Source: Burkholderia sp. WP9 | Lineage (GTDB): Bacteria > Pseudomonadota > Gammaproteobacteria > Burkholderiales > Burkholderiaceae | Direction: 5' to 3' | Assembly: GCF_900104795.1 (NCBI RefSeq) | Contig: NZ_FNTG01000001.1 | Span: 1-64,000 of the forward strand | DNA length: 64,000 nucleotides | Part shown: piece by piece, positions 19,358-60,861 of the stretch | How the letters are laid out: each line of letters starts with the position of its first letter | Numbering within the stretch: the stretch's first letter is position 1 | Position numbers and translations under genes: made by a program | The notes under the pieces: model-generated | Database searches by the model: none | What the model saw: only the letters and a program-made list of their open reading frames with translations | Told to the model about the DNA's origin: nothing

Positions 19358-20374
19358 ATCGTTCGACGGGCCGCGTGGTTTGCGCCGGCCATTAGAGCGG
19401 ACTTCAGCGATTGATGCAGAGCGCATTAGCCGCGCTGTGCGTGGCGGCGCGCCGTCCGGCCGCGCCATCTCCGTTCATCTTTTCCCGAGATAATTTCGAT
19501 GCCGCGCGCCCCGACCGGGCGCCGTCTGGCTGCGCTTGTTAAAATCGGGTTTTCCGCTCAATCCCCGTGGCGCCCGGATTTACCCGGCAGGCGCCGCGTC
19601 GAAGGAACCCGAATGAAACAATACCTCGACCTCGTCCGCACGATTCTCGACACCGGCACGTGGCAGGAGAACCGCACTGGCATCCGCACGATCAGCATGC
19701 CGGGCGCCATGTTGCGCTTCGACCTTCAGCAAGGCTTCCCCGCGGTCACCACGAAAAAGCTGGCGTTCAAATCGGCGGTGGGTGAACTGGTCGGGTTTCT
19801 GCGCGCCTCGCGCAGCGCCGCGGATTTCCGCGACCTCGGCTGCAAGGTGTGGGACGCGAACGCCAACCAGAATCCGCAGTGGCTCGCCAATCCCTATCGC
19901 GAAGGCCCGGACGATCTCGGCGACGTGTACGGCGTGCAGTGGCGCCAGTGGCCGGCCTACAAGGTGTTGAACGCAGACGCGAGCGCGCAGCTTGCCGACG
20001 CGACCGCGCGCGGCTTCCAGGTGGTGACCGAGTTCGAAGAAGATGGCAGCCGCAAAGTGTTGCTGTACAAAGCGATCGACCAGTTGCGCCAATGCCTCGA
20101 CACGATCATGCAGAACCCGGCGGACCGGCGCATTCTGTTTCATGCGTGGAACCCCGCGGTGCTGGATCAGATCGCGCTGCCGGCTTGCCACCTGCTTTAC
20201 CAGTTCGTGCCGAACGTGGTGCGCAAGGAAATTTCGCTGTGCCTTTATATCCGCAGCAATGACGTGGGCTTGGGGACGCCGTTCAATCTGACCGAAGGCG
20301 CGGCGTTGCTGCACCTGGTCGGTCGTCTGACGGGTTATACGCCGCGGTGGTTCACCTATTTCATCGGTGACGTG

Positions 20375-20380
20375 CATATC
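20375..20380 (+). other. Left core site of the island (attL core)
   Basis: CATATC, the last host thyA bases before the island, coding His-Ile. The right junction has CACATT in the same frame, also coding His-Ile. This is the likely crossover segment. Confidence 0.75.
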
Positions 20381-20401
20381 TTTGTGGAACCTAAATTAGT
20401 A
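20381..20401 (+). repeat. Left terminal inverted repeat of the island
   Basis: The sequence inside the left end, TTTGTGGAACCTAA, matches the reverse complement of the right end (TTTTTGGAACCAAA) at 12 of 14 positions, and AGTA follows in both with a 2-base offset. These are probable recombinase arm sites. Confidence 0.75.
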
Positions 20402-20712
20402 CCAACATACCACTGACATTGGCTTTCAGCCGAATTTGGCATGGCACTTTTTTGGAAAGTACCATTTCGCCTTCAAGACACTGCGCCGGCTTTTTACTTA
20501 TCCACATTTAATCCACAGGCGCATGTACTCGGTCGCGGCTCCAAATGAACCCTCCTTTCTCTTCCACGTTGCACCCGGTCAAACGTGCGCTCCGTCTCGG
20601 TCGGCGTTCCAGCCCTAAATAAACAGTGGCGTAGCTGCGGGCTGGCGATTCGCTGTTCTTTCCCTTGTCGCCGGTTTTCGGAAAAAAGCGCTACATGAAT
20701 AGTCCTAACACT
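20402..20712. other. Left-end non-coding region with two DnaA-box-like sites
   Basis: No gene is supported in these 310 bp. TTATCCACA, a perfect DnaA box, is at 20498-20506, and TAATCCACA (one mismatch) at 20509-20517, in the same orientation and 11 bp apart. Their meaning is open. The region is downstream of the nuclease gene and contains no obvious strong terminator. Confidence 0.5.
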
Positions 20713-21435
20713 CTAACGGGTTAGCCGTGACCCGACGAGCGTCTGGAATACCTGGAGAATGTCAACTTTCGTTCTTCCGCTACTGATTGATGCCAGAAAG
20801 GGGTCGTAGCGCACCGATACTTCTTCGCCACTACGAGGATTGAGCAGAACAAAGTCCTGCCACTCTTCGCCTTTACCTTCGACAGCGGCCGCGAAACTCA
20901 AGAGCCAGTAGATGGCAATTTGACGGTAGTCGGACGCTGAAAAGCGTTTGGCCGAGCACTTGACTTCAATGAGGGAGGGGCCAATTGCAAAGTCGCCTTG
21001 CCCGCTTCCAATCCACTCCAATCCTGGGATGGCTGGACGCAAAACGACCGGCTGGTTCTGCTGGTGGCTCTTCGTCCTGAGCCTGGTCGAAAGATTCTGC
21101 GCGACGATTTCAGCGAGCGTTCGGTCAGCCGGTTCGATTTTGTCCGGAAGCACGGCGTCGAAGAATGCTCCCTGCCGCTGCAGTGTCGCCTCAATGCACT
21201 CGGCCCAGTCATATGCGGTACCTGTCATGATGCGTTCTGCAAGCGTATATCCAAGCTCGAACAGAATGGCGCGCTGTAGCCTGGACTGAGAAAGCAATGC
21301 TGGGGGCAGCTCTTGAACATTGAATTTGCTGGCTCGCGAATTGAAGTGCGCGACGATTCCCGGTGTCAACTGCGGAAATACCTCATCAAGGATGCCGGGG
21401 ATTTCGCGAGCGACGGAGCGCGGGTCAATCTGCAT
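20713..21435 (-). CDS. PD-(D/E)XK nuclease-like partner of the reverse transcriptase
   Basis: 240-residue protein. The C-terminal half has a recognisable PD-(D/E)XK core: Asp148 in GQGDFAIG, then Glu157-Val-Lys159 in LIEVKCSAKRF, then Gln172 in RQIAIYWLL, the motif IV-like helix. The N-terminal half is helical and unassigned. The ATG at 21435 has GAAGGAAG upstream and lies inside the 3' end of the reverse transcriptase gene (11-nt overlap), so the two are translated together. A start at 21462 is possible but less well placed. The pairing with a reverse transcriptase suggests a two-gene defence system; no name could be assigned. Confidence 0.75.
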   Translation of the reverse strand: MQIDPRSVAREIPGILDEVFPQLTPGIVAHFNSRASKFNVQELPPALLSQSRLQRAILFELGYTLAERIMTGTAYDWAECIEATLQRQGAFFDAVLPDKIEPADRTLAEIVAQNLSTRLRTKSHQQNQPVVLRPAIPGLEWIGSGQGDFAIGPSLIEVKCSAKRFSASDYRQIAIYWLLSFAAAVEGKGEEWQDFVLLNPRSGEEVSVRYDPFLASISSGRTKVDILQVFQTLVGSRLTR

Positions 21436-23209
21436 CTTTGACTTCCTTCGCCCATTTTTCATAGACGGTTGCGAACCGGGGTTCAGCGCCTCGCGGATGC
21501 TTTTTGAGCTTTTCCTTATCCTTCTCTTCGTCTAACGGTACTTCAACGCCCAGAGCCCACGCTTGAGTGATGGCGTGGCGAAACTGTCGCTGCGTGGCAT
21601 CGCCTTCGTCAGCAAACTTGAAGGCGGCGAGCCAGAAGAGACGTTGGCACTCGGGCGTCATCTGATGCCAGCGATTTCGGAGGTAGTTGAATCCGGTCCT
21701 GTCGCCCCAGTTACGCCAACAGTCTAGGCAAGCGCGTCGGACGGTATCCAGCTGAGTTGAGTCGTAGAGCCGGCGAACGTAGAGAGCGCGTTCCGTTGTG
21801 CTACGGAATCTCAGGCACCGCATGTAATGGAGAAGGCTCGTGTCAACTTCGAGAAGATGACTCGAGTGATTTGGCACCGCGTCGAGCAGCGAATCGATAC
21901 GCTCGTGGATGGACACGAAGCGTGGGTCAGCGTGTAGATGGGCGATGCCACGCATAATGGTCGAGAAGGATGCGCGAAAAGCATGCAGATTCTTGCTGGC
22001 CAGCAGCGTTGAAGCGATTTCCAGTGCGATGTCTGGGTCGTGCAGTCGCATCGTACGACCAATCTGGGCCACCAGGAAGGTGTCGGGCAACGCCTTTTCA
22101 AGTTCCCGGTTCAGCAGGCTCCGAATCGCAAGCGTCTCGACAGTCTCCTTCAGCGATTCATAGTCGTCGTCTGGCGTGTCAGAGTATGGGTCGAACTTGA
22201 GGTCGATGGTTCGGAGTTTGATTGCCTCGTCATCACCTGCGCCTAACTGGGAATTGACGTAGTCTCGATAGTGTTTTGAGGACAGAAACACGGACTTGGA
22301 TTTGTTCAGGCTGAGGCCATAATCCATCAAACTCTGTGCCAGCACGCCAAGGGCGCGGTAAGCCTCGGCTGTATTCGCAGCAATCAAGACGTAGTCGTCG
22401 ACGTAACGGTGCCAAGTGACGCCGGCAGCTGTGATAGCGTTGTCGACTTGGTTGAGGAAGAGTTCCGCAAGAATGCGCGCACCTTGGCCGCCCACAGGAA
22501 GTCCAAAGGACCTGCCGGCGAACAGCTTACCCAACAAGGCGTTGATTTGCTTCGAGACCTGCTTGCTATCTCCGCCAAGGTCGTTGATGAAATTCTCGAT
22601 GTAGTGGTGAGAGACGTGCTCGTAAAAGCTGGAGATATCAGTCTGAACGACGATGGCATCTGTGCCAGCGGCGTCAGCGCTACGGACAGTCTCCTCCTTG
22701 AATGCGCGCCACGACCGAGCCGGGTCAAACAACTGCACTCCGGCACCGGGAAGAAACCGGTAAGAGTGGACGGTGGCTTTCCGCTGTGGTTCTATCGCCT
22801 CGGCAATTGCGATGGCCAGACCGTTAAGGTAAACGTTCCAGAAATGATGAATCTTTGTGACCACGCGGAAGCCAGCAGGACCAGAGGGGGCGATAAGTCG
22901 CTCGCTGTAGATGCGCATGCAAGCGATGCGCTCATGGTTGTCCTTAGGCGGCCCATCGCGTAGTTCTCCGTAAAAGCCGAAGGCGATGGTAGCGAGGTCC
23001 TTCGCACGGTCGCCGCAAAATTTCACGTCCAAGTCAAACGGAAGCGTGTCGTTGTCACCGTGTGCAGCAACTTCGCGCGCGGCGCGCTCGAAATGGTCGA
23101 GTGCGGGCTTCAGCAAGCAAGTCTCCCGTTTTCGATATACATCGAAGTAAACATCTAGTGCGACTGCCACGTATCTCTGCTCTGCTCGAAGCCAGAGTAG
23201 CAGGACCAT
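21425..23209 (-). CDS. Reverse transcriptase of the defence-associated (DRT/UG-like) kind
   Basis: 594-residue RNA-directed DNA polymerase. RT motif A is at QTDISSFYEH (catalytic Asp191), motif B-like GLPVGGQG at 236-243, and the catalytic YVDD at 269-272, followed by the motif D region LSLNKSKSVFLS. After residue 330 the protein is a long helical domain without maturase (X/HNH) features, as in Abi/UG-group reverse transcriptases. There is no msr/msd-type or group II intron structure that I could recognise. It is followed by an overlapping nuclease gene and preceded by about 600 nt of non-coding DNA. Confidence 0.88.
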   Translation of the reverse strand: MVLLLWLRAEQRYVAVALDVYFDVYRKRETCLLKPALDHFERAAREVAAHGDNDTLPFDLDVKFCGDRAKDLATIAFGFYGELRDGPPKDNHERIACMRIYSERLIAPSGPAGFRVVTKIHHFWNVYLNGLAIAIAEAIEPQRKATVHSYRFLPGAGVQLFDPARSWRAFKEETVRSADAAGTDAIVVQTDISSFYEHVSHHYIENFINDLGGDSKQVSKQINALLGKLFAGRSFGLPVGGQGARILAELFLNQVDNAITAAGVTWHRYVDDYVLIAANTAEAYRALGVLAQSLMDYGLSLNKSKSVFLSSKHYRDYVNSQLGAGDDEAIKLRTIDLKFDPYSDTPDDDYESLKETVETLAIRSLLNRELEKALPDTFLVAQIGRTMRLHDPDIALEIASTLLASKNLHAFRASFSTIMRGIAHLHADPRFVSIHERIDSLLDAVPNHSSHLLEVDTSLLHYMRCLRFRSTTERALYVRRLYDSTQLDTVRRACLDCWRNWGDRTGFNYLRNRWHQMTPECQRLFWLAAFKFADEGDATQRQFRHAITQAWALGVEVPLDEEKDKEKLKKHPRGAEPRFATVYEKWAKEVKDAD

Positions 23210-28438: not shown

Positions 28439-28440
28439 AA

Positions 28441-34101: not shown

Positions 34102-34188
34102 ATTTACAGAATGCCTTCCGCAGTGTGATGCCACAGTATCCGATATTCTGCGCGCATGGCGCAGCACCGTCGCGAAACGCTCGACGAA

Positions 34189-36561: not shown

Positions 36562-36721
36562 AAATTTTCTCTTTCTTTTGGGGCGTACAGCCATCTGCTG
36601 TCGTCAGTGGTGAGTATGCGGATTGCACTCGTGCCATTCAAGGCGGTCATACAGCTTGCGCCTATAATGAGCCTCGTCCGCCTTTGAGCCAAGGGAGATA
36701 ACGGCTGTCAGCACCTGTCGG

Positions 36722-43020: not shown

Positions 43021-43121
43021 ACGTCGTCGGCTCGTTTCGCCTTTCCGCCCACGACGAGGTGACGACTCGTGAGACTTGCCAACGCGCCACACAACAAGAA
43101 CAGACCATTCCGGGGTAACGC

Positions 43122-46100: not shown

Positions 46101-46235
46101 CACAGCGCCATGAGCACTCAGGCACTTGGTTCTGAGCGAGTGCGCGAAGGGCTCAAGGACATTTTGCTTGGGCCAGCGCAGTTGTACGAAGCGTTGCGCG
46201 CCAAGTCAAACAGCGCCGAAGGGACGGCTGCCTAA
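43122..46235 (+). CDS. hsdR: Type I restriction-modification endonuclease/translocase subunit
   Basis: 1037-residue HsdR. The N-terminal nuclease has Asp143 in ELDLVLFVNG and Glu157-Leu-Lys159 in TVELKSNF. The helicase motor has Walker A HSAGSGKT (308-314) and DEAH at 421-424, and a later motif ANKFQTGFDQPLL. The length is normal. 101 nt separate it from hsdS, with GGGG just before the ATG. Complete and probably active. Confidence 0.94.
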   Translation: MSNLHQEHHFEAEICQHLGANGWLYAEGDAARYDRPNAVYLPDLLAWVEETQPAAWQRLTKTHGPAVSDRLADRVRKSLNERGTLDVLRRGVEMLGLKEPLSLVQFKPSLAINPAILQRYAANRLRVVRQVRHSPNNPLEELDLVLFVNGIPVATVELKSNFTQSVQDAVDQYRFDRHPHPKAGIVEPLLSFPGGALVHFAVSQSEVMMCTRLAGPSSVFLPFNRGNEGAAGNAPNPGGFATAYLWEDIWARESWLEILGRYLIGKRDDKKQLKSVIFPRYHQLDATRKLVADALARGAGERYLIQHSAGSGKTNSIAWTAHFLADLHDAEHNKMFDSVLVVSDRTVLDAQLQEAIFDFERTTGVVATITNEHGSKSAQLSQALKDGKKIIVCTIQTFPFALQAVQELAATEGKRFAVIADEAHSSQTGEAASKLKQLLSVEEWNALQDGGEIDTEALLAAQMEARTGAKGLTYVAFTATPKQKTLELFGRPAPDGLPQPFHVYSMRQAIEEGFILDVLKNYTSYKLAFKLAHDGHELDEKQVERSTAMKGIMQWVRLHPYNISQKVQVVVEHYRENVQPLLDGRAKAMVVVASRKEAVRWQKAIRAYIEKQNYPLGVLVAFSGEIDDLETFPMPVSETSKELNPGLKGRDIRDAFSEPSYHLLLVANKFQTGFDQPLLCGMYVDKMLGGIQAVQTLSRLNRAYLGKDTTYILDFVNDAGEILKAFKTYYETAELEATTDPHKVYDLRAKLDASGNYDDFEVERVAKVDLDPKGTQAQLDAAIAPVANRLLKRYKSTWQERTYAEEQHDDKAAQAAKDALDALVLFKNDMGAFIRLYAFLSQIFDYGNTDIEKRFLFFKRLGPLLEFGRERDAVDLSKVVLTHHNLRNTGRQTLNLGHGESPKLPPMDAVGSGSVQDKQQAFLDEIIEKVNGLFEGELTDDDQLVYVNGVIKGKLLENATLVQQAMSNSKEQFASSPDLKNALLHAIMDAFEAHSAMSTQALGSERVREGLKDILLGPAQLYEALRAKSNSAEGTAA

Positions 46236-48748: not shown

Positions 48749-50734
48749 GTGAAATCGTCTAGGAACGCCTTTGAATATCTGGTTGACCGGATATTGAGGA
48801 AGCGCTGCGTACCTCTTATCGGCGCTGGCATCTCAATGACCTCTACCAAAAACGGCAAAGAATGGAACGGGCACTCGGTGTGGGAAATGCTCGGGAAGGT
48901 TGTTAGCCCAACCGTCGACATGCGAATCGAACGCCTTTCGAAGTCTGCGAGAGCTGCCGGAGACGCCGTCGCACTGTGTCAATCGTGTTTTTTGGCATTT
49001 GCGGACAATATTCGGCAACGATTGGATTTGGCCAGCGGTACCTGTCCGATGTGCGAACTGCGAGAAGCAAAACAGAGTCGTGCGCTAACAAAAGCATGTG
49101 AAGCATTCCTTTGGGAGCGTGGTGGCCCAAACAGGAAGGAAACGTACACGGAACTCGTCAAAGCACTACACATTGACCAGTTCGCCGACCTAGACCCAAC
49201 ATCGGCGCATTTTCACCTCGCATTTCTCGCGCGTGAGGGACTTATAACCGAATTCGTCACTACAAATTATGATTGCAATCTCGAGACTGCGTATCGCGAG
49301 ACATGGTCAAACTCGCGTTCGCCTGAAATCGGACCAATCTGCGCTATTTACGACCTCAAGAGCTTCGCCGTTGGCGCCGCCGACAGCGCCAAATGGGTGG
49401 CGGGCGAAGACACGCGCCATCCATTGAAAGTATTCAAAATCAATGGCTGCGCCGCCCGACTACGGGAACGTCAAAGTCACGCAACGGACATTTTGCTTAC
49501 CGCGTCACAGCTTCAGGATTGGCGGGCTAGACGTTGGGCTGCCGATTTTTTTCGGACGAAGATACGCATGGCGTCCCTTGTCACAATCGGCTTCGGCAGC
49601 GACGAACCGCAAGTGGTTCACACGCTACAACAAGTGTTAGAGGAATTTGCGGGCTTCGACAGTGAACCGAAAGGCTGGGGGAGCGATGACTTGTTGGCGT
49701 CGGAAAACGCCCCAATCGTGACGATGTACGAGCCGTATCCGAGCTTTCCACAGATGCAGCTTGCCTACGGGTTCTCGAGTTGGTTGACTGGAAATTCGAC
49801 GGGCGGCGACGAACTCCTTATTGGACCGTTGCAGCGGCCTAGCAGAAGTCAAGCATTGGGCAGCGGTCAAGCGCGGGCGGCAAAAGGGCTGACGGCAGAT
49901 GAACTCTGGGCGGACGTCTTTCAGGCGGTCTTTGGCCAATTGCTCGTCCGGGAGTTGCGTAACGCGGCGGCGACAAACAGTGCGGCGTTTACGGCGACTA
50001 TCCCGTACGCCAATAGTTGGCTCAGCTCAATCGCTCAGGGGTTGGAGGGAAATGTCGCGTCACGGATGTTACCGGGGGCTAGCGAGGCACATTGGCTCAC
50101 GGAACTTACCCCGAAAGACGCTGCGCCTCACGCGCGACCGCCCCAACTGACTCGTTGCGTCACTCATCTCCTCGGTCAGCTCGACAGTTTGAATCGCTAT
50201 ACAGCGCTGTCAGACCATGGAAGTTTCTTCACGGAATTGGTGCTACTGTTCGCCTTGCTGCGAGAAGCTTCAAGTTTGGGAGCAATGCCCGACGATTGGC
50301 AGCAGGTCGTCCTTCGTGGCGGAAGCGTTCTAGAAGTGCCAATTTACGTACCCGGCGAAAGCGGCGTCCCGACACCGACCTCCATATTCGTTAGCCGCAC
50401 TCTTACGTCCACAAGTGGGCAATTGCCGCAAGTAGGCAATTCTAGCCGTGGGGCGAAGCGATTGGAGCTTGTGCTGGGGGCAGGGGCAAATCCCCTTGTT
50501 GACCTGGAGCGCCGGACGTTTGCTGTCAGCGCACAAGGACAAAGTCCGGTGACCTTGATACGCTTGGACTGGAAAGCGCTTTTCCCGCCGGACATGCCAC
50601 TCAAGAGCTACCGCGATTTAAGTCGAAGGGTCAAAGACGCAGCCCATTTTCCGACTAAATATCGGCGGAGACTGGACGCGAGCGTTCGGACAAATCCGTT
50701 CCTTGAGCTGAACGCAGTTACATCAGGACTATGA
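48749..50734 (+). CDS. SIR2-domain protein with a zinc-finger insert
   Basis: 661 residues. SIR2-like NADase domain: GAGIS at 25-29, TTNYD at 171-175 and a later INGC motif. A four-cysteine insert (C77, C80, C99, C102) lies inside the SIR2 domain. Residues after about 290 are unassigned. The GTG start has AAAAGGAAAA upstream. Its stop overlaps the next start (ATGATG), and that gene in turn overlaps an SMC-like ATPase gene, so the three are translated as a unit. NAD+ depletion as output is inferred from the domain. Confidence 0.7.
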   Translation: MKSSRNAFEYLVDRILRKRCVPLIGAGISMTSTKNGKEWNGHSVWEMLGKVVSPTVDMRIERLSKSARAAGDAVALCQSCFLAFADNIRQRLDLASGTCPMCELREAKQSRALTKACEAFLWERGGPNRKETYTELVKALHIDQFADLDPTSAHFHLAFLAREGLITEFVTTNYDCNLETAYRETWSNSRSPEIGPICAIYDLKSFAVGAADSAKWVAGEDTRHPLKVFKINGCAARLRERQSHATDILLTASQLQDWRARRWAADFFRTKIRMASLVTIGFGSDEPQVVHTLQQVLEEFAGFDSEPKGWGSDDLLASENAPIVTMYEPYPSFPQMQLAYGFSSWLTGNSTGGDELLIGPLQRPSRSQALGSGQARAAKGLTADELWADVFQAVFGQLLVRELRNAAATNSAAFTATIPYANSWLSSIAQGLEGNVASRMLPGASEAHWLTELTPKDAAPHARPPQLTRCVTHLLGQLDSLNRYTALSDHGSFFTELVLLFALLREASSLGAMPDDWQQVVLRGGSVLEVPIYVPGESGVPTPTSIFVSRTLTSTSGQLPQVGNSSRGAKRLELVLGAGANPLVDLERRTFAVSAQGQSPVTLIRLDWKALFPPDMPLKSYRDLSRRVKDAAHFPTKYRRRLDASVRTNPFLELNAVTSGL

Positions 50735-51453
50735 TGCTGGCAGAACATTCATTCCCTATAGCCCCCGGCGCTGCAGCTTGCGATGCAAATCAATTCAGCC
50801 TGCGCGCGTTCGAATGGCTCGCCTGGGACCGGCTAACGATATCCCCGATTGCAGCTGTGCTGCAGGCCGTTGGTACGGTCGCACCCGCAGAGGGCGAGAG
50901 CGGAATCCAGAAAAGAGACGCATTGCGAGACGAAATATGTGACCTTTTGGACGCGCTTTCGTCATTTGGAATGCAGGTTCCGCTAACTCTAATTGTTAGT
51001 TGTGACGAAGCGAACTACGACGCGTGGCACAAGCTGGCCGGAGACCAGGACTGGATTCGTGGCACGTTCTTCATCGAGCCATTTACACCAGCAGCCTTTC
51101 GAAGCGTCGGAATAGCAGATGCCGCGCAGTATGCCAGGATGCTGACAGATGTCGAGGCCGCTCACGTAAGCAATTACAAGCTTCGAACTTTGACCGACGC
51201 AGACTACCTCGATATCGTTAATAAACGTTTGCAGACGGAGAAGAGCAACTCCACGCGAGTGTTGGGTGGTTACATCGTCGAATCCCTCAGTGAAACGGGA
51301 CTATTGAGAGCGGGCGAACCAGTCGGGCAAGGTCGGGTGGAGCGCGCGGTCAATCGTTGGGTGGCGCATGAGGTCCTCCCTCGCGCCTTGAAAGCGTTAG
51401 CTGAATCACCGACAGCCCCGCAAACAAAGGCCGCAACAAAGGATGGACTATGA
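50731..51453 (+). CDS. Unknown middle protein of the SIR2-ATPase set
   Basis: 240 residues, no recognised family. It has an alpha/beta N-terminal half (LTLIVSCDEANYDAWHKLAG) and a helical C-terminal half. It overlaps both neighbours by 4 nt. The strict coupling suggests a stoichiometric complex. It could be an adaptor between the SIR2 effector and the ATPase. Confidence 0.65.
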   Translation: MMLAEHSFPIAPGAAACDANQFSLRAFEWLAWDRLTISPIAAVLQAVGTVAPAEGESGIQKRDALRDEICDLLDALSSFGMQVPLTLIVSCDEANYDAWHKLAGDQDWIRGTFFIEPFTPAAFRSVGIADAAQYARMLTDVEAAHVSNYKLRTLTDADYLDIVNKRLQTEKSNSTRVLGGYIVESLSETGLLRAGEPVGQGRVERAVNRWVAHEVLPRALKALAESPTAPQTKAATKDGL

Positions 51454-53615
51454 GACCTGTGCAAAAACTGAAGTTAGAGAATTTCAGGGGGTTTGTCGGT
51501 ACACACGAAATTGACCTTGACGCTGACTTGGTGCTTATTTCTGGAAAGAACGGTGTCGGAAAAACGAGCCTCTTGCTTGCACTCAATTTGTTGTTAAATG
51601 GTCAGACGTCCTCGCTTGAAAAACTTGGGGCGACTTTAACGAAGGGTGCCAGCTCCGGGACGCTGGAAACGACTGGAGCTTTTGCCAAGAAGATTGACCT
51701 GATGATGCCGCCGCCCCCTGTCTTGCATGCAGACCTGCTAGAGCGGGCTCATTTCTTTATCGCCGACTCAATCGATTCCCCTGAGTCGTCAAGTGATGTC
51801 TTGAGCATTCTCGAGCCACAGGCCGGTGCGTGGGTCGAGATTAAGCCCGCTTTGCAAAGCGCGGTAGACGAAATCGCGCGACACAGGAAGGAACTGGTAG
51901 CACGCGTTGCGGACACACAGAGTGCGCGACGGACAGCAGCTCGACGCTTTGAGAACGCGCGCGCCGCGCTAGATGTGGATGCGTTTGAGTGGACAGCGAA
52001 CATTCGTGATGTACAGAGCCTGTTGCTGACGCAAGATAATTTGGCTAATCATTGGGAGAGTCAGCTTCGCAATTTGGTCGCAACAATCGGTTCGATTGTT
52101 GGGAGTAGCTCCACGCCCTCCACTGATGTAGCGACAACTCTAACCGAGCTGGCTCAACTATTAAAAATTCTTAGGAACAACGTTGCACACTCGTCCGGGC
52201 GTCCAGAATCGAAGCATAATCTTATCGCTGCGCTCGAGAATCGTCTTGAATTCTCGGCCGACGCTCCGTTCTTTTGGGCTCGTGAGTTGCCCATTTATCC
52301 GAGAGCTAGCGATGCTCCAGTGAGCCTCCCGGTGGACGCCAAATCCGAGCAGATTTGGAGAGAGAAAATAGGCGAAACTCAAGATAAGTACAGGACTTTT
52401 GAGCGACGGCTACGTGAGCTGGATAGATTTTTAAGTGATTTCGATTCTCCGCTGGAGTCGCTCACTCGCATGCTCGAGCAAATTGGGGAGGTAGCCCCTC
52501 CATGGCTCGGACAAATGGACAGGCATCATCCTGATGACGAGAGAGTGCATGCACTACATACTTGGCTGCGCGACACGGTTGAAAAGACGCCGTTGTTGCG
52601 CGCGGGCGTCGCGAGGTACGCTTCCGCTTTAGAGGAAGAGCGCCTCCATCTAGCGGATATTGTCAGGGAATTAGGCGAAGTTGACACACAGCTTCAGCAT
52701 GAACTTTCGTGCGCAGCTGTCCTTCAAGGGTTGAAAGAAGAGCCTTGGGTGCAATCTGCGACAACCATCGGTGACTTGAAAGGGCAGGTCAAGGACATCT
52801 TGGACACCGAGCGGTATAAGGAGTCTCGGACCGACCGTGTTGCCGCTCAGCTGGCGACACTCGAAGAGGCGACTGTCGCTTGGGCCAATATCGAACGTGC
52901 AATCGAAGCCGAGACCCTCCGTGCTCGAGAAGCAACTTCCTTAAAAGAAGCCGAAAAGACATTTGTCGAAGCGGAGAGAACGCTCAAGCAAGCCCTATCT
53001 AATGACGGGATATTTAGTTTGGCATCCGCGATGAATGGTGGGCAGCTTGAACAACTTTTGTTGACTCTAAATAGATTATTGGCACGCTTCCACTTCCCGA
53101 AAGATTTTTTGCCCATACGCCTCGCACGAAATCCCGGACGAAGTAAGGCAACCGTGTATAGCTTTGTTTCACGGAATGGCGTCAACTTCCAAGGGCTTTC
53201 TACTGGGCAAAAAACGCAATTGGCAATCAGCTGGTCGGTATGCCTTAGTTATGCGTTGCGAGATAGACTGATGACACCACTCATCGCGTTTGACGACTTT
53301 ACGACAGCTCTCGATATGGGGCAGTTGATTCCAGCTGCAGGAATATTACGTCAGCTTGCGTACAGCACATCTCAGCAATATCACCGCCAGGTCATCCTGA
53401 CCAGTCATCATGAACAGATGACGAACTATCTCATCGATTATTTACTGCCCCCCCCTGGGAAATCGATGAAAGTCATTCATATCGAAGAGTGGACGCCGGC
53501 CAGAGGTCCCTCCATCGTTGAATACAATGCAAAGATGCCGAACGATTCCGAACCGCCCGACCCAGTGAGCATCTGTCGTTGGCTGCAAACCCAACTGCAC
53601 GGGCGTACGCACTAA
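51450..53615 (+). CDS. SMC/RecF-like AAA ATPase
   Basis: 721 residues of the ABC-ATPase/SMC class: Walker A GKNGVGKTS at 32-40, a long coiled-coil-prone middle (about 120-560), signature LSTGQKTQ near 585, Walker B LIAFDDF near 612 and a switch His in TSHHEQ. Such split-head ATPases sense DNA ends or structures (Rad50, RecF, RecN, and the ATPases of several defence systems). It is the largest and last main gene of the coupled SIR2 set. A 54-codon frame with a strong ribosome-binding site follows. Confidence 0.75.
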   Translation: MRPVQKLKLENFRGFVGTHEIDLDADLVLISGKNGVGKTSLLLALNLLLNGQTSSLEKLGATLTKGASSGTLETTGAFAKKIDLMMPPPPVLHADLLERAHFFIADSIDSPESSSDVLSILEPQAGAWVEIKPALQSAVDEIARHRKELVARVADTQSARRTAARRFENARAALDVDAFEWTANIRDVQSLLLTQDNLANHWESQLRNLVATIGSIVGSSSTPSTDVATTLTELAQLLKILRNNVAHSSGRPESKHNLIAALENRLEFSADAPFFWARELPIYPRASDAPVSLPVDAKSEQIWREKIGETQDKYRTFERRLRELDRFLSDFDSPLESLTRMLEQIGEVAPPWLGQMDRHHPDDERVHALHTWLRDTVEKTPLLRAGVARYASALEEERLHLADIVRELGEVDTQLQHELSCAAVLQGLKEEPWVQSATTIGDLKGQVKDILDTERYKESRTDRVAAQLATLEEATVAWANIERAIEAETLRAREATSLKEAEKTFVEAERTLKQALSNDGIFSLASAMNGGQLEQLLLTLNRLLARFHFPKDFLPIRLARNPGRSKATVYSFVSRNGVNFQGLSTGQKTQLAISWSVCLSYALRDRLMTPLIAFDDFTTALDMGQLIPAAGILRQLAYSTSQQYHRQVILTSHHEQMTNYLIDYLLPPPGKSMKVIHIEEWTPARGPSIVEYNAKMPNDSEPPDPVSICRWLQTQLHGRTH

Positions 53616-53895: not shown

Positions 53896-54729
53896 TCAGA
53901 CTGCGATGGGAGCGGCAATTGACGGGTGAGGGTTGTAGCCGACCAATTCAAAATCCTCGAACCTGTACCCGTAAATCGATTCAGGCCTTCGCTTGATTTC
54001 AAGCTTCGGCAACTCCCGGACGTCGCGAGTCAACTGTGTGTGAATCTGCTGCATATGGTTGGAATAGGCATGCAGGTCGCCGATACTGACCACAATCTCG
54101 TGAGGCACTAGGTCGCATTGCTGGGCGAGCATGTGGGTGAGAAGGGCAAGTGAGGCGATGTTATAGGGCAGTCCAAGAAAGCTATCTGAGCTTCTGATGT
54201 ACAACATTGACGACAATTTGCCTTCTGCCACGTAAAACTGGTAGAGCAAGTGGCATGGTGGCAAAGCCATCCGACCTTGCTTGGCATTTTCCTGCGGGCT
54301 GATAGATTCATCCGGTAGAAACTCGGGATTCCAGCCGTGAAACAGAATTCGCCGACTATTGGGATTCTTCCGAAGCGTGTCGATTACGTAATCAATCTGG
54401 TTGATGGTGCCACCATCTTTCGTAGGCCAAGCCGTCCACTGCTTGCCATAAACCGGACCAAGCTCGTTGTCTTCGGTGGCCCATTCATTCCAGATGGTGA
54501 CGCCATTCTCGTTTAACCAGCTAACGTTCGTGTCGCCGCTGAGAAACCAAATGAGCTCGTTGGCGATGCTCTTGAAATGCAATTTCTTTGTCGTCAGCAG
54601 CGGAAAACCCTTCGAAAGGTCGTGCCTTATCTGCCGCCCAAAAACAGATGTTGTGCCGGTTCCCGTGCGGTCACCTTTGGCGGCTCCGTTTTCCAGCAGG
54701 TCTCGAAGAAGTTCGAGGTATTGCTTCAT
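53896..54729 (-). CDS. thyA: Element-encoded thymidylate synthase
   Basis: 277-residue complete ThyA that converts dUMP and methylene-THF to dTMP and DHF. It has DRTGTGT near the N-terminus, catalytic Cys in [10 protein letters not shown] (about 160), the [15 protein letters not shown] block and the motif GDLHAYSNH. It is a different, shorter subfamily from the host gene (277 against 323 residues), with much lower similarity than recent duplicates would show. It is 12 nt after the small coiled-coil gene, the last gene of the recombinase operon. At the place where the host gene was cut it reads CATGCC (minus strand, 54067-54072), not CATATC, so it is likely not a target for the element. It should restore thymidine prototrophy. 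Confidence 0.95.
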
Positions 54730-54741: not shown

Positions 54742-55197
54742 TTATTCGTTTGTCCTACCGACAGGTGGGACGATTGACAGGTTCTTTCGAGCTTTGAGCC
54801 CAGCGATTTCCTTGTCCTTGCGGGCAATAGTCTCTTGCTGCTGAAGAACGTGTTCGTATAGCAACACGTTCTGCTGGAGAAGGCGGCCGATTCGTTCCCT
54901 GAGCTTGTCGGGTGTGTTTTCGGGCTGGTCGGGCGTGGGTTGGCTGTTCGCCTGAGGTTCCGCATCGGTTTTAAGCTTTTTCTTAATTTCTTTCAGTTTT
55001 GTGAGGGCCCAGGTCCTGTTGCGAATGGTGTTTCTCGACAACCCAGTCATCTTGCAAACCACTGCAACTATGGGTTTGCGCTTTCCGCGCTTCATCGGGT
55101 CGCCCAGGAGCGCCAGAGCATCCAGAATAAGCCTATCATTTTTCTCAGATTCAGCGGCGTTATGACTCGTCAGTTCGGGTGGGCGTTGGTCAGACAT
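54742..55197 (-). CDS. Small coiled-coil protein of the recombinase module (TnpC-like)
   Basis: 151 residues. Residues 15-75 form a helical, basic segment resembling an HTH (VVCKMTGLSRNTIRNRTW). Residues about 100-140 form a coiled coil (KLRERIGRLLQQNVLLYEHV). Size, position after two or three recombinases, and the helical character match TnpC-type accessory proteins of Tn554-like elements, which bias integration or excision. The start overlaps the preceding recombinase stop by 8 nt. Confidence 0.7.
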   Translation of the reverse strand: MSDQRPPELTSHNAAESEKNDRLILDALALLGDPMKRGKRKPIVAVVCKMTGLSRNTIRNRTWALTKLKEIKKKLKTDAEPQANSQPTPDQPENTPDKLRERIGRLLQQNVLLYEHVLQQQETIARKDKEIAGLKARKNLSIVPPVGRTNE

Positions 55198-57082
55198 TAG
55201 TAGTCTCCCGTTCTAGCTTGGCAACGTGCCTATCCAAGGTCTGAACCAAGCCCCACCAGACCTTCTTGTAGGCCGGATTGGTCTCGCGCTCTGCTTCACC
55301 CATCGCATGATTTTTTCGCGCGACGAGCGCTCTCGCTGCCCGGTCTGTAATCAAATGGCTCGGACAGTCCGGGTCACATTGGAAGTCGCCGTAGCAAGGC
55401 GGGATGCTATCTGTCGGGGCGGCAAGATTTTTTCCGCAGTTTCCAATACTTGTTGGCATCAGTTTCACGCCACGCCTCGCCATATCCTTGATGTACTTTT
55501 CGCGCCGTTCTCCGAAAAGTCCCATGCCGGAGAAAAAACCGTCAATTCGTGCCTTATGCTTCACAGCGCCACCACCAGCAAATCTGGCCTCTTCGCCGTA
55601 GACGTCCAACAGAGCTCTTTCCCGGGCGTCCGCCAGACGGTTTGAAATGCTCGTCATCAACTGCTTTCGGTATTGTCCATACCCGGCCGTCACAGAGTTG
55701 GGCAAAGCGCTGAACTGGCTCCTGAAATGCTTCAGTTGCATACTGATGAATGGTAGGCCGACTTCCTGTTGCGCCAGTTGCGAGACAAGTGTCTCGCGGC
55801 ATTGGTGGATAGAAAACGTCCAGTCAACGAAAAGGCCGTGGCTATCGATTGTTCGCAGCCATCTTGCGAACAAAGTGTTGAGTGTGCCGCCATGGGTGTA
55901 GCCCTTCTTGCCGTCACTCTGCCCTAGCCACGGCGACGAAAACAAGAATTCATTCCCCGTTTTCGCCGTGATAAACATTAGGATGTCGTACGCGTCCCGA
56001 ACGATGTCTATGGCTAACCACCCCTCGCTTATTGGCGTATCTTTCGAGCGCTGTTTCACTTCCTTAGAAACCAAGAACCAGTAACCATGCTCTAGTTTGA
56101 GACAGTTGCGCTTCAAGTAGGCGACTTCAGTCGCGCGCATCCCCGTAAAAAGGAGAACAAGGAGCATGGCCGAGGTATGGCCCTCTTTGATAACTTGGTG
56201 TAGCTCGGACGCTGCGAGGCCGTGCTTGTTGCGAAAGGCGTTGCCGCCCACCGCGTCGCGTCTACCTCCATAATAGCTGTCAAACGCACTCTTCCGCGAT
56301 TGACTCGAGTCCGACCCGAGAGAACGACCCAACGCTTGACAGTCGCTGTCATGCATTTCTAAGCCGGCTGCGGACTTGAACTCGACAATGGCCTTTTTGC
56401 AATAGTCAAGGAGATAGAGAAACTGCGCGTCAGACAGCGTGGGGATGCCGCCTTCGTCTTCCGAACTTCTCCAGGAAATCGAGCTTCCCGTAATATCGGA
56501 GAGCCCCCACTGCAAGGGCTCGCTAAGATTCTTCTGGACGCTTGGGTCCGAAATCAACTTGAGCGCCCGTTTTAGATGCTCCGGGCGACCCGCGAACGAC
56601 GCAACGGTTTCCTTCACCAACGAGAAAGGAATGTCGGCGAGACTCGCTACGGCTAGTTCGGGCTTCTCTTTCGCTTTCAGGATGACCGAGGAAAAAAATT
56701 TCGCAAGGTCGTCGATGCGTCCTTTCACCGTTTTGGGGTCGAGTTGCTCCTTGGCGGTCTTCGCATCTTTTATCAAATTGGGAAAATTCCCAAAAATGAC
56801 CGCTGCAATTTTGAGGTCGCGAACTATCTGCTTGGTCAGGCAATAAGTATATTTTGCCTTGTGAACAGAGTTCGGATGACTGAGAGTGGTGCCTCTGCCG
56901 TCAATGTAGTCTCGCCATACAAAGCTAGAGGTAGTCGGTCCTTTATATAGAGGGGAATCAGGGGCGACGAAGGGCCAGATGTCATCGCCAAACCGTCCGG
57001 ACCAGACGGGCATGTCATCTCTAAAAACCGCTCGTCCTTCGATGACGTCGGACACCGTGGGGACACGTGAGAACATGGGCAT
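55190..57082 (-). CDS. Tyrosine recombinase, third of the module
   Basis: 630 residues. The catalytic set is visible: Arg in LFTGMRATEVAYLK, HxxR in HQCRET, and a Tyr in AGYGQYRKQ. A Cys-rich tail (about 540-580, PPCYGDFQCDPDCPSH) may bind zinc. It starts 2 nt after the previous gene. Larger than a usual integrase, comparable to the large recombinase (TnpB class) of Tn554. Confidence 0.85.
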   Translation of the reverse strand: MPMFSRVPTVSDVIEGRAVFRDDMPVWSGRFGDDIWPFVAPDSPLYKGPTTSSFVWRDYIDGRGTTLSHPNSVHKAKYTYCLTKQIVRDLKIAAVIFGNFPNLIKDAKTAKEQLDPKTVKGRIDDLAKFFSSVILKAKEKPELAVASLADIPFSLVKETVASFAGRPEHLKRALKLISDPSVQKNLSEPLQWGLSDITGSSISWRSSEDEGGIPTLSDAQFLYLLDYCKKAIVEFKSAAGLEMHDSDCQALGRSLGSDSSQSRKSAFDSYYGGRRDAVGGNAFRNKHGLAASELHQVIKEGHTSAMLLVLLFTGMRATEVAYLKRNCLKLEHGYWFLVSKEVKQRSKDTPISEGWLAIDIVRDAYDILMFITAKTGNEFLFSSPWLGQSDGKKGYTHGGTLNTLFARWLRTIDSHGLFVDWTFSIHQCRETLVSQLAQQEVGLPFISMQLKHFRSQFSALPNSVTAGYGQYRKQLMTSISNRLADARERALLDVYGEEARFAGGGAVKHKARIDGFFSGMGLFGERREKYIKDMARRGVKLMPTSIGNCGKNLAAPTDSIPPCYGDFQCDPDCPSHLITDRAARALVARKNHAMGEAERETNPAYKKVWWGLVQTLDRHVAKLERETTNV

Positions 57083-57084
57083 GG

Positions 57085-59199
57085 CTAGATACCTTGGTAA
57101 ATCAAATGGTCCACAAGCAGGTCATCCATGGTCGCCGCCATATGCTCGGCGCTCCGCAATACCGATGCAGGAAACACCACGTCGGGCTCCAAGAGACCGT
57201 CAATGAGCTTGACTGTGTCCTTATATAGCTCTTTCCTGCCTTGGATTGCGGGAGAGTCTTCATGAAGTGCCGTATTGACCCGCCCCTGATAGACCATGAG
57301 CTTGGGGAGAGATTTTTCGGTGACGATTGAGCTGTCGCACCGTATGCACATGTTCCAGTGCGCACAGGGGGAGCCCTCAACATGCTTTGTGACAGCACGC
57401 ACGTTCGCGCTCGGATTGTAAGGGTCTCGGCAGCCGCAACCGGAAAGGGTTTCGAGGAAACCGTCCGAACTCGCGGTCATACGAGGCTTCGTAGCCTGTG
57501 CGACTGTCTGGTCGGTCTTCATATGTTCTTTGGAGCGTTGGGCTATGCGCTGAAGAGCTTCCGAGACGGTGCGGTTAAATACAGGTTGCAGTCCCTGGCT
57601 ATCCAGATAAGTTGCGGTAGTCGCGATGCCTTCATGTCCCAGCGCTACCTGCACCTCAAACATGCTGGCCCCCGCCAGAACCAGATTGGTCGCAAGGGTT
57701 GGGCGGCACCGTGCAAGATTGAAATTAAAGCCTCGGCCGTACAGGCGATATAGACCTTCGCCGGAGCAGAACCGCCCGTACCAAGTCCGCACCTTGCGTT
57801 TGGGCTCTATCGCCACGACCGCACGATTACCCTCTCTTCGGGAGCGTTCGACGTCCTCAAAAATGAAGAGTCGCCGGGCAATTTCTGGAGGGGCGTCATT
57901 TCTGATTTTCGATGTGAGAGCGAGAACAAGACCGACTACCTTCTCAACCCGCTCGACAACCGAATCAGCAAGATAGTGCTCTTCCATTTCCAGCACTTCC
58001 AAATGCAGCTCTCTATCCTCCGAGCGAGTCGAACTACCGGACCGCCGCTTGTGGTAGATAATGACTGGTTGTCTAGTGAGCGTGTGTTCCTTCTGGTAAG
58101 AATCGACCTGTAGTTCCTTTAGCGCCTCGACATTCAAGCCTGTCAACATACTAAGCTCTAAAGCGAGTGGCATGATTATCCGGTCATCTACATGAGGCCA
58201 GACGCCCCATCGGATGAAGAGGGTCGACAGGCGCTTCATCGTGCAGACAGCCGTCAGGCGATTCCGCACACGAGAAAAATCCTCATACATCGCAAGCGCG
58301 TCACAGCCGAACTCGTTTTCGAACATCCACAGGAGCGCTCGGTCATCGTTTTTTCGTACATAAAGGGGCTCAATTCCAACGCTCTGTTCCGGAGTGAAAC
58401 CAAGGCGCAATCGGACGGCGACGACTGAACTACTAATGCCATATGCATTACCCGCAGCGCTGATGCTGTTGTACGTAATATCTTCGACTGAAAGTGCAGT
58501 GGGCAAACCCTTTGATGAAGGGCGGGGTGACAATCCGATGGCCTGGCAAAAACTCCAGCCCTGACGAATTCGATGTGAAAGCGTTCCAGGTGCAATCCCG
58601 AACTGCTCGGCAGCTTCGGATATTCCGTAGTGTCTACCGTCTAGCTCAAGGGGCGGAAAGGCCATCTCGCGTTTGCGATACGGAATGCCTGCACCTGTAG
58701 GCGTATAACCATTGAGAGCGCTATTAGCCAAGCCAATCCACCGAGCGACCGCTGCGTTGATGACTTCCTGTTCGTCTTCGGCGTAGGCTGACCTCTGCTT
58801 CGTCTCTGACACACCTTTAAACATCGGTGCATGATAGACCACCGTGTCGATGACTCGAAGCGCATAGGCCATGTCCATAACTTGCCGGACTGACTTATAG
58901 ATGCTGTAACGCGTCTTGCTCGCTAGTGCCTGCGCGTTCAACCACTTGTTGAAACGGATTAAAGCATCGGCTTCCCAGTGAGCGGTGAGATAGAAGCGTT
59001 TGTCGGACTCCAGGTCGTCGTAATATGCGTTGGTTTCAGTTACGAACTTCAAGTACTTGTTCTTTGCGTAACGAATTCCGTTCGCGGTCACTGTCTCGTA
59101 TTCGGCTTCGAGTTGGAAGAACATCCACTTGACCTGTGCATATGGGTCCCGCATCGTCGGCTTGGGGGGCTGATGAAGACGCACAGGCTCGTCAAGCAC
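57085..59199 (-). CDS. Tyrosine recombinase-like protein, second of the module
   Basis: 704 residues. The C-terminal recombinase fold is recognisable by LGHEGIATTATYLDS, with the nucleophile Tyr, and by RCRPTLATNLV around the second Arg. The first catalytic Arg is replaced (LTGLNVEALKEL has Asn) and the His of HxxR reads Ala. A Cys-rich zinc-finger-like tail follows (CGCRDPYNPS and PCAHWNMCIRC). So it may be structural or need a partner for catalysis. GTG start at 59199 with GAGG upstream; overlaps the first recombinase by 8 nt. Confidence 0.8.
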   Translation of the reverse strand: MLDEPVRLHQPPKPTMRDPYAQVKWMFFQLEAEYETVTANGIRYAKNKYLKFVTETNAYYDDLESDKRFYLTAHWEADALIRFNKWLNAQALASKTRYSIYKSVRQVMDMAYALRVIDTVVYHAPMFKGVSETKQRSAYAEDEQEVINAAVARWIGLANSALNGYTPTGAGIPYRKREMAFPPLELDGRHYGISEAAEQFGIAPGTLSHRIRQGWSFCQAIGLSPRPSSKGLPTALSVEDITYNSISAAGNAYGISSSVVAVRLRLGFTPEQSVGIEPLYVRKNDDRALLWMFENEFGCDALAMYEDFSRVRNRLTAVCTMKRLSTLFIRWGVWPHVDDRIIMPLALELSMLTGLNVEALKELQVDSYQKEHTLTRQPVIIYHKRRSGSSTRSEDRELHLEVLEMEEHYLADSVVERVEKVVGLVLALTSKIRNDAPPEIARRLFIFEDVERSRREGNRAVVAIEPKRKVRTWYGRFCSGEGLYRLYGRGFNFNLARCRPTLATNLVLAGASMFEVQVALGHEGIATTATYLDSQGLQPVFNRTVSEALQRIAQRSKEHMKTDQTVAQATKPRMTASSDGFLETLSGCGCRDPYNPSANVRAVTKHVEGSPCAHWNMCIRCDSSIVTEKSLPKLMVYQGRVNTALHEDSPAIQGRKELYKDTVKLIDGLLEPDVVFPASVLRSAEHMAATMDDLLVDHLIYQGI

Positions 59200-60424
59200 G
59201 ATGGCCTCGTCTTTCGATATGCTGCAAATGACCCAAGAATGTCTTCTCTCGAATCGTCTCGGCCTCTCCCAGACGATTGATTGCGCTTCCGGCTTTGGTC
59301 AGTGCTTGCAACATTGAGGGCGGAATCTGCGTGTATATCTCGGTTGTGGTGAGCTGCGCATGACCAAGCATCTGCTGAACAATCAGCATCCTGTCTTGGT
59401 AATCTTTTCCCATATCGGAGCGCAGCACCGAATAGGCGGTACCGTGGCGCATCCAGTGTGTTGACATCTGGTCTGTCAGGCCAACTCTGCGAATGGCATT
59501 CTTGAATTGCTTGGAAGCATTTCTTGTGTCCCAAGGCAACTGATTGACGGTGAGGAATGCGGGCTTGCTAGGGTCGTGAATGTCCCAGTCGGGCGCGAGT
59601 TTGTACTCTGGAGTACTGTGGTATCGCTTGATTCGCTTGAGAACAGCGCGCGAAATTAAAGTAATTTTCTCCGGAGTTTGACCGCCGCGCCCCTTAACGC
59701 GCTTCGCGCAGACCGGGATGAACTCAAGAGACGGGTTGTACATTGTGTCGTCGGGGATGTCGCCTAAAGTCAGCCGAGTCACTTCGGTGATTCTGAATCC
59801 CATGTCGTACTGCGCATGAAACATGCACCTTTCGCATTCGTTGTGCATCCCGTTCAGAAGCTCAATAACGATTTCAGTAGAGACAAATTTGGGACTGCGC
59901 GCATTGGGGGTGGCGACGATGTACCGAAGGCTGTTGTTGCGACCGTAGGGCGAATCCGCCGGGTCTCTAAGACGTCCCGCCTCGATTGTTGTCAACCATT
60001 CGAGAAAATTCTTTACGCAAGCCTCTCGGGTGTGCAGCGTGAAGTGGCTTTCTGCTCCGAGCTCTTTCATGTCGTCGAGCCAGGCGGCGATGTCCTGACG
60101 ACTCAAGAGGGGCAGTTGTTCGTCGATAGTGAGGTTTGGATACAACTGGCGCCTTTCCATCCAGCGACAAAGATACGAAAGGATGCGGCCGTATAGCACG
60201 ACAGTGTCGTGCCCGACAGTCAGTCCAATTACAGCACTCAACGAACGCAACCACCCATGCATGGATTTCACCACAGCCCCGCTTGAGTCCACGACGCTGA
60301 ATATGGGGTAGCTGCTTTTGGGAATCGACGCATCAAAAGTGTCGCCACTGGAAAGCACAGTCATGGGCGAGTCGCTGTATCGCACCACTACAAACTGCGC
60401 CTCGAGGGCACCTGTACGTGTCAT
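59192..60424 (-). CDS. Tyrosine recombinase, first of the module
   Basis: 410 residues with a complete catalytic set: Arg in GFRITEVTRL, HWMRHG (HxxRH), GHA, and Tyr in TTTEIYTQI. An N-terminal SAM-like core-binding domain (about 80-170) precedes. ATG 60424 has GGAA upstream; TTG 60436 would add 4 residues. It is the first gene of the operon recombinase 1, 2, 3, small protein, thyA, and is nearest the right end of the island. Most likely the main integrase. Confidence 0.92.
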   Translation of the reverse strand: MTRTGALEAQFVVVRYSDSPMTVLSSGDTFDASIPKSSYPIFSVVDSSGAVVKSMHGWLRSLSAVIGLTVGHDTVVLYGRILSYLCRWMERRQLYPNLTIDEQLPLLSRQDIAAWLDDMKELGAESHFTLHTREACVKNFLEWLTTIEAGRLRDPADSPYGRNNSLRYIVATPNARSPKFVSTEIVIELLNGMHNECERCMFHAQYDMGFRITEVTRLTLGDIPDDTMYNPSLEFIPVCAKRVKGRGGQTPEKITLISRAVLKRIKRYHSTPEYKLAPDWDIHDPSKPAFLTVNQLPWDTRNASKQFKNAIRRVGLTDQMSTHWMRHGTAYSVLRSDMGKDYQDRMLIVQQMLGHAQLTTTEIYTQIPPSMLQALTKAGSAINRLGEAETIREKTFLGHLQHIERRGHRA

Positions 60425-60497
60425 AGGTATTTCCAAACATCTGTGGGTACAGGCAAAAGCGGTCGCACGTCGTCTATCCAGAAAGTGTCCTCGGCCG

Positions 60498-60516
60498 ATT
60501 GTACATCAGACTGATG
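60498..60516 (-). promoter_or_regulatory. Putative promoter and operator of the recombinase-thyA operon
   Basis: On the minus strand a -10-like TACAAT (60498-60503) is abutted upstream by the perfect inverted repeat CATCAG-A-CTGATG (60504-60516). No good -35 was found. The repeat in the spacer is placed to let a repressor block the promoter. The site is 74 bp before the ATG at 60424 and about 110 bp inside the right end. Confidence 0.4.
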
Positions 60517-60606
60517 AAATGGCTAAAAAATATGGTTGTGAGAAACAAAACAGGTTTACCGGTCGTTTTGCACGCTCAGCCGTGTAACAACCCACGAGAT
60601 GGCCTT

Positions 60607-60625
60607 TACTGTTTGGTTCCAAAAA
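60607..60625 (-). repeat. Right terminal inverted repeat of the island
   Basis: Reads TTTTTGGAACCAAACAGTA on the minus strand from the junction inwards, matching the left end at 12 of the first 14 positions. Confidence 0.75.
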
Positions 60626-60631
60626 CACATT
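60626..60631 (+). other. Right core site of the island (attR core)
   Basis: CACATT, in frame with the following thyA codons (Tyr-Glu-Asn-Gln). It is a synonymous variant of the left core CATATC. Confidence 0.75.
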
Positions 60632-60861
60632 TACGAGAATCAGCTCGACATGTTGCAGCAGCAACTCACGCGCGAGCCGTACGAAAGCCCGGCTTTCGCG
60701 ATTTCGGATCGCGTGCCGGAGTACGCAAAAACCGGCGTGTACGAGCCGGAATGGCTCGAAAAGATCGAGCCGTCGGATTTCTCGCTGGTTGGCTACCGGC
60801 ATCACGAGCCGCTCACTGCGCCAATGGCCGTTTGAGCGTCGGCGGGCAAGCTGCCCGGTCC

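Follow-up and report, generated by a model that had tools for sequence, protein, structure and literature searches.

The window analysed here is a 64,000-nucleotide stretch of the Burkholderia sp. WP9 genome (assembly GCF_900104795.1, contig NZ_FNTG01000001.1, positions 1 to 64,000), and its central feature is a genomic island that splits the host gene for thymidylate synthase, thyA, and carries a complete thyA of its own. The 5' half of the host gene (256 codons) and its 3' half (67 codons and the stop) join in frame to a 323-residue ThyA and are separated by 40,251 bp, confirming an earlier reading of the sequence (hereafter the original prediction) that had described a thyA split by a 40.2 kb island. 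The cut falls after codon 256, between GDVHI and Tyr, and thus, as had also been proposed, inside the conserved GDxHxY motif. The frame of the 5' half continues for 11 codons into the island. The 11-residue tail that the truncated ThyA receives in this way from the element end (20381-20416) resembles the tails found in genomes G541, G543, G542 and G314. The GC content of the island is 0.55, compared with 0.64 and 0.69 in the flanks. The features that define the locus are, in window coordinates:

19613..20380, forward strand: host thyA codons 1-256 (5' half), with the frame running on to a stop at 20416
20375..20384, forward strand: left imperfect direct repeat CATATCTTTG (attL), core CATATC, at the same place in G314, G541, G543 and G542
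20381..20391, forward strand: left element end TTTGTGGAACC, an inverted repeat of the right end, from the sequence
53896..54729, reverse strand: replacement thyA, 277 aa, complete (PF00303, 362.8 bits over the full profile; NCBIfam NF002497, 403.6 bits)
54742..55197, reverse strand: ginD, small fourth protein, 151 aa (34% identity to L022 GinD)
55190..57082, reverse strand: ginC, tyrosine recombinase, 630 aa (PF00589, 37.3 bits; 51% identity to L022 GinC)
57085..59199, reverse strand: ginB, large tyrosine-recombinase-like protein, 704 aa (PF00589, 21.7 bits, below the cut-off of 27.1; 53% identity to L022 GinB)
59192..60436, reverse strand: ginA, tyrosine recombinase, 414 aa (PF00589, 54.9 bits; 53% identity to L022 GinA)
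60615..60625, forward strand: right element end GGTTCCAAAAA, from the sequence
60626..60635, forward strand: right imperfect direct repeat CACATTTACG (attR), core CACATT, at the same place in G314/L034, L030, L033 and L031
60632..60835, forward strand: host thyA last 67 codons and stop (3' half; open reading frame with PF00303)

Leftwards from the right end of the island, ginA, ginB, ginC and ginD are followed by the complete thyA. Passages of PMC5385486 describe this layout for GInts, also named Tn6571-family elements in PMC10121019: three integrase-type genes and a small fourth gene lie at one end, and the cargo extends from ginD on. According to other work on GInts, a circle is integrated by GinABCD with a 6-nt exchange, and excision also occurs. 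The window island has its three integrase-type genes and small fourth gene at one end (60436-54742), its cargo starts directly behind ginD, its 40.2 kb lie within the GInt range of 2.5-76 kb, and insertion is site-specific, with the same thyA codons used within each lineage. GInts are flanked by imperfect direct repeats of 10-17 nt, and here CATATCTTTG and CACATTTACG are identical at 6/10 bases. By its layout and domains, the island is classed as GInt-type.

The window GinD had no Pfam or NCBIfam match, GinC was unmatched in NCBIfam, and no NCBIfam model was specific to the recombinase trio. Relaxase and conjugation families, as expected of integrative and conjugative or integrative and mobilizable elements, were absent from a Pfam scan of 20 open reading frames (ORFs) of the island. 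An I-TevI-type DNA-binding repeat in GinB, a possible tie of this protein to thyA, is not claimed, as its matches scored 21.9 bits in L022 and 14.7 bits in the window, against a cut-off of 27. Residues ~185-265 of the window GinB may hold helix-turn-helix or homing-endonuclease-type repeats, all with scores below Pfam cut-offs. In viral contigs, 15 stretches fitted a pattern for the window GinC and none encoded a relative, a plasmid tblastn search with GinC gave two records, both from Pseudomonas, and across 144 same-genus genomes GinA had a strong match only in G073 and G060 besides the window, at 34% identity.

The replacement thyA sits 12 bp behind ginD. Its product shares 34.7% identity with the 5' half of the host ThyA and belongs to another subfamily, as originally predicted. 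It can be aligned from end to end with ThyA chains of solved structure, and it retains the PCH, YxRSxD, PxN and GDxHxY motifs, which we take to be catalytic. A PF00303 search of the whole genome (9.02 Mb, 7 contigs) found the two host halves and the cargo copy, and nothing else, and ThyX (PF02511) was not found in this genome. The replacement is thus the genome's only full-length ThyA. Uninterrupted thyA genes, which the original prediction suggested looking for in relatives, stand at the same site in two members of the genus (L005, 95% DNA identity; L007, 93%), and the thyA motif pattern gave no match on a third (L006). A DNA search with the host 5' half matched 143 of 144 same-genus genomes, with alignments that end at the junction and are silent on continuity there.

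The arrangement is not confined to this genome. A profile made from four GinC proteins, used in one scan of a collection of 84,980 species, gave 58 loci. ThyA was then searched in 55 genomes for 56 of these loci (L041 and L056 share a genome; those of L031 and L083 were left out). G544 (L034, Xylophilus sp. Leaf220) is apparently the same genome as G314. Other genomes also have the recombinase set beside thyA, a check that the original prediction suggested. In 44/55 genomes thyA is split, and each of the 44 has exactly one full-length ThyA. This agrees with the proposal that the island inserts at a conserved motif of an almost universal gene and brings a full copy of its own. Of the 44, 43 have both pieces, 5' and 3', and in all 26 genomes with the three parts on one contig, coordinates place the full copy between the pieces. 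In the other 11 of the 55 genomes, thyA is uninterrupted and single, with no pieces. Additional thyA pieces occur in G547, G549, G550 and G561, and the 5' piece of G563 is broken. A ThyX back-up for the split gene was considered and rejected, as ThyX was found in 0/37 genomes tested, with the same model matching 6/14 control genomes. The replacement lies no more than ~20 bp from ginD, or overlaps it, in the window and in Pseudomonas elements. The whole element of Shewanella decolorationis (L079) spans ~8.9 kb and consists, in order, of the thyA 5' half, ginABCD, thyA, one more gene and the thyA 3' half.

For a second sample, a wider GinC profile (A2) was run against 398 Pseudomonas genomes; having been built from thyA, nadE and bcp elements, it biases the proportions of targets. 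It matched 27 genomes, which were read as 19 insertions in thyA, four in nadE, two in a DUF808 gene, one plasmid-type remnant and one other. Sixteen of the 19 thyA cases were already in the main survey, and the three new ones (L135-L137) each have a full cargo ThyA. In this profile-biased sample, thyA is thus the landing site of such islands in ~5% of Pseudomonas genomes (19/398).

Within thyA, the position of the cut depends on the lineage. In the Burkholderiales lineage it lies between GDxH(x) and Y, and the same codons as in the window are cut on both sides in G314/L034 (Xylophilus), L030 and L033 (the left sides of the latter two in G541 and G543), on the right side only in L031 and on the left side only in the genome of L032. 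The ends of these elements read TTTnTGGAACCTAAA on the left and TTTGGTTCCnnAAACACAT on the right, with one or two bases varying in single elements, and form inverted repeats around the core, which is CAYATY in the window. The gammaproteobacterial lineage instead cuts at the (F/G)L-G codons of RSxDx(F/G)LG in all 21 junction pairs extracted, and its ends are also inverted repeats, most clearly in L047 and L079. The side of the operon differs as well: ginA adjoins the 3' half in the Burkholderiales lineage, whereas in the gammaproteobacterial lineage it lies on the 5'-half side, oriented like the host thyA. The host gene is thus not always split at the His-Ile codons, a point that the original prediction raised for checking; a third site, at Cys-His codons, is used in G033 (see below).

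In the twelve loci outside thyA, ginA is preceded by a truncated nadE (five loci) or bcp (seven loci). All five nadE genomes have the gene in two pieces, 5' and 3', and besides these one full NadE, which is a larger open frame of 549-581 residues located ~1.2 kb from the 3' piece; a control genome, G545, has one full NadE and no pieces. In these genomes (those of L056, L059, L064, L065 and L074) the replacement has a much larger frame than the split nadE. If the larger frame is the glutamine-using type and the split nadE the ammonia type, as we assume, this suggests that the ammonia type was swapped for the glutamine-using one. In all seven bcp genomes, the two pieces are likewise accompanied by one full Bcp, whose identity to the copy of L070 is 82-100% (100% being the query itself). 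In L058, L070 and L075 this copy immediately follows ginD; in L081 it lies a few kb further on, and in the genomes of L080, L084 and L087 it is found at the far junction. The original prediction needs correction here, as nadE and bcp are targets too, and one plasmid copy with the same recombinases (described below) lies outside thyA while still carrying a thyA. A DUF808 gene would be a fourth target, as gin operons lie beside a truncated copy in two Pseudomonas loci (L139:5489-5998 and L140:5525-5992).

The history of these elements was followed in two trees. From the GinC tree (57 rows, midpoint root, several long branches), L022 was excluded because its locus is already represented by L034, as were L053, L083 and L086, which are short; L027 and L039 were included without a target label. 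In this tree, the window and five other Burkholderiales elements form one group (100/100), and the nadE rows and the bcp rows each form one group (100/100 each), with two target changes explaining all labels. The replacement therefore changed where the recombinases changed target. A quick tree of the N-terminal part of ThyA (86 rows) places the cargo copy of the window among those of the other Burkholderiales elements and not with host genes, and the cargo/host label needs five changes, compared with a mean of 27 after shuffling. The replacements belong to at least two ThyA subfamilies. One, of 277 residues, is carried in Burkholderiales, Pseudomonas, Idiomarina and Aeromonas; another, of 283 residues, is carried in Acinetobacter, Psychrobacter, Marinobacter and Shewanella.

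In seven Pseudomonas loci (L035, L037, L045, L067, L068, L073 and L076), the split thyA (~3950-5320) itself falls within the cargo-type part of the ThyA tree, a pattern expected if newer elements had targeted the replacements brought by older ones. One of them, L037, has two truncated thyA genes in a row before ginA.

Taken together, it is likely that an island of the GInt family cuts thyA and supplies the substitute in the same event. In the proposed mechanism, the island would integrate via its own recombinases at a short core within a conserved coding motif of thyA, cutting the host gene. With its own thyA placed behind the recombinase genes, the same event would destroy the host enzyme and supply a distant homologue. 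Integration would take place in one step from a circle, the replacement would be active and transcribed with the gin genes, and its divergence would keep it from being a target itself or from recombining with the halves. Exact excision would restore the host thyA; if only part of the island were lost, the cell would be left with no thymidylate synthase. A stabilising 'addiction' effect, as put forward in the original prediction, could follow from this but probably does not apply to bcp. Across this recombinase family, the pattern of splitting a target and carrying its substitute held in every testable genome, for thyA, nadE and bcp.

Other explanations have to be weighed against this one. The thyA of the island could have been ordinary cargo, for instance from a megaplasmid, with the second ThyA making an insertion into the host thyA harmless and no coupled strategy behind it. 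The same ThyA type without gin genes on plasmid pMPPla107, and a plasmid with ginABCD-thyA outside thyA, fit such a passenger-first order. We nevertheless regard it as quite unlikely, given that target and replacement agree in 55/55 genomes and for three different genes, that they switch together on the tree, and that thyA is so closely joined to ginD. Alternatively, the replacement might mainly hold the island in place, with the killing of the host gene as the selected function. The tested genomes have no other full-length ThyA and no ThyX, so that partial loss should leave a thymidine requirement; against this, exact excision would restore the gene, and bcp, which is not known to be an essential gene, shows the same arrangement. 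Addiction as the selected function is accordingly considered unlikely.

It is also conceivable that the two thyA halves assemble into a working enzyme and that the cargo thyA is incidental. Both halves in the window keep open frames, but the 3' half has no obvious start codon when read by eye, the 5' halves of G561, G563, G569 and G578 contain a stop, gap or break, and in a comparable island that splits the kinase gene tmk the halves were shown not to be needed (PMC10653934). Such an assembly would be very improbable. An assembly error that joined unrelated contigs, a general risk, can be practically dismissed. The window contig is one of only seven, the arrangement is shared by numerous independent genomes, two of which (L048 and L072) have records titled as complete genomes, and the cut at the same codons in G314/L034, L030, L033, L031 and the genome of L032 bears out the original expectation that the split is not a join of unrelated contigs. 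On this recurrence, an artefact was rejected.

Several observations weigh against simultaneous splitting and substitution, or limit its reach. In G542, the 5' thyA piece was found and the 3' piece was not. A NadE control genome, G555, has two full NadE and no split. The replacement lies by the far junction and not behind ginD in 5/5 nadE and 3/7 bcp genomes. The Pseudomonas nadE cases comprise G573 and L132-L134, of which the first was searched for a replacement and the latter three were assigned by reading frames, and the contigs of the two DUF808 elements end before a replacement could be judged. A Pseudomonas putida plasmid (NZ_CP061724.1, L027:5116-12834) carries ginABCD-thyA outside thyA, with gin proteins identical to those of L041; the thyA site is therefore preferred and not obligatory. 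Lastly, passages of PMC5385486 describe GInts that sit at the end of ssb or within an ABC-transporter gene and mention no replacement for them, and the rule is therefore not universal for GInts. As for the off-target site of the L027 plasmid element, its left end is as in L041, and it adjoins a gene that is annotated as hypothetical and looks GNAT-like by eye.

Much of the remaining content of the window island consists of anti-phage defence genes:

20713..23209, reverse strand: DRT8 reverse transcriptase and PDDEXK partner (PADLOC Drt8, 499.5 bits; RTasPDDEXK, 237.6 bits)
30337..34167, reverse strand: Dsr1 (SIR2) (PADLOC Dsr1, 540.2 bits)
39815..46235, forward strand: type I restriction-modification M, S and R genes (Pfam)
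46310..48679, forward strand: PDC-S73-like nSTAND3 protein (PADLOC PDC-S73, 429.6 bits; Pfam nSTAND3)
48749..53615, forward strand: SIR2-domain protein, a 240-aa protein without a match and an LmuB-like ATPase (LmuB, 71.3 bits)

Three further large island proteins are encoded beside these known defence genes: a 510-aa protein without a family match (23807-25339), an 801-aa protein with a SEC-C motif (34189-36594) and a 956-aa protein with a weak HSDR_N match (36722-39592). It is possible that all three are undescribed defence genes.

A comparable arrangement with other recombinases was found within the window's own genus. The search of the 144 genomes with the host 5' half also uncovered G033, whose thyA is cut at the Cys-His codons, between PA and CHLLYQF, by an insert of 50 kb. 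Here the element's own thyA comes first, followed by genes for proteins of 692 and 686 residues, a smaller protein and a 410-residue integrase. Compared with Gin profiles by hhalign, these recombinases gave best E values of 0.0021 and 0.011 and are not detectably Gin, so that a kinship of the trio to Gin is at most weakly indicated. G033 has its gene order, the replacement followed by B-, C-, D- and A-like genes, in common with islands of Pseudomonas that split tmk and carry the replacement kinase dNMPK (L163 and L164), and the proteins of the two are only weakly similar (blastp E 4e-6 and 3e-5). Such a tmk island is described for Pseudomonas putida KT2440 and others, where the replacement kinase dNMPK (PP_1964) was shown to be essential; its authors call it a first-case example and found it in several genera (Wirth et al. 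2023, PMC10653934).

In the sample of 398 Pseudomonas genomes, dNMPK (PF21448) was matched in 36. Twenty of the loci are short-frame loci, and none of these 20 had a gin-like match, with the GinC model finding 61 frames in thyA loci as a positive control; the six whose genes were listed look like prophage regions by eye. Among the remaining 16 loci, eight have gin-like matches (E 5e-9 to 0.009, several of them weak). In L163, a tmk fragment adjoining dNMPK was confirmed by Pfam. The loci with dNMPK beside gin-like recombinase genes are L163-L166, L168, L173, L174 and L177. The published tmk islands may thus be distant kin of the GInts.

Extending this to multi-recombinase islands in general, that is GInts together with the tmk and G033 trios, we think it rather probable that 'split and substitute' is a common strategy, in which the specificity of the recombinases and the substitute form one linked module. 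Such elements would be able to use the best-conserved motifs of housekeeping genes in many hosts and would not be lost piecemeal. Newer elements would overwrite the substitutes of older ones and thereby exchange core genes across species, such as ThyA subfamilies, NadE types and Tmk by dNMPK.

Integration sites are usually thought to be chosen for little harm. The elements discussed here destroy essential or core genes at the codons that are conserved best, and the same event delivers the substitute. Among the matches listed from the open-licence literature, none reports a GInt that splits thyA, nadE or bcp and carries a replacement, and the main text of the GInt paper (PMC5385486) has no occurrence of thyA or thymidylate. 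Going by the passages of Wirth et al. 2023 (PMC10653934), the principle itself is already proven for tmk, and the general rule appears to be new as far as literature searches reach. It ties GInts and the tmk island into one testable rule, by which the cargo is predicted from the target and the target from the cargo, and offers a possible route for genes of core metabolism to be replaced by distant homologues.

Among known systems, there are phages and islands whose target gene stays functional after integration because they restore its 3' end. These rebuild the same gene at the junction, whereas thyA islands supply a separate, distant, full-length copy. GInts share with the window island the gin operon at one end, the cargo from ginD on, the site-specific insertion, apparently between imperfect repeats, and the defence cargo, the latter known from E. 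coli GInts (PMC10121019). They differ in that, according to passages of PMC5385486, insertion probably does not fully inactivate their targets, while the target in the window is cut mid-gene and a replacement is carried. Strand-biased circularizing elements (SEs) are a related multi-recombinase kind, for which passages of PMC10214605 mention one insertion into bcp, state that they can be separated from GInts by sequence and do not mention the replacement of target genes. The closest parallel is the tmk island. Both split an essential gene of thymidine-nucleotide metabolism and carry a distant replacement, functional in the case of tmk. The tmk island differs in the gene concerned, in its T4-type kinase as the replacement and in recombinases that are at best weakly Gin-like (8/16 loci), and the passages of PMC10653934 draw no link between it and GInts. 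The essentiality of its replacement was established by experiment. In their sequence, the thyA islands show these features of the tmk type: a housekeeping gene is split, a full-length distant homologue lies inside the element, and there is no other full copy.

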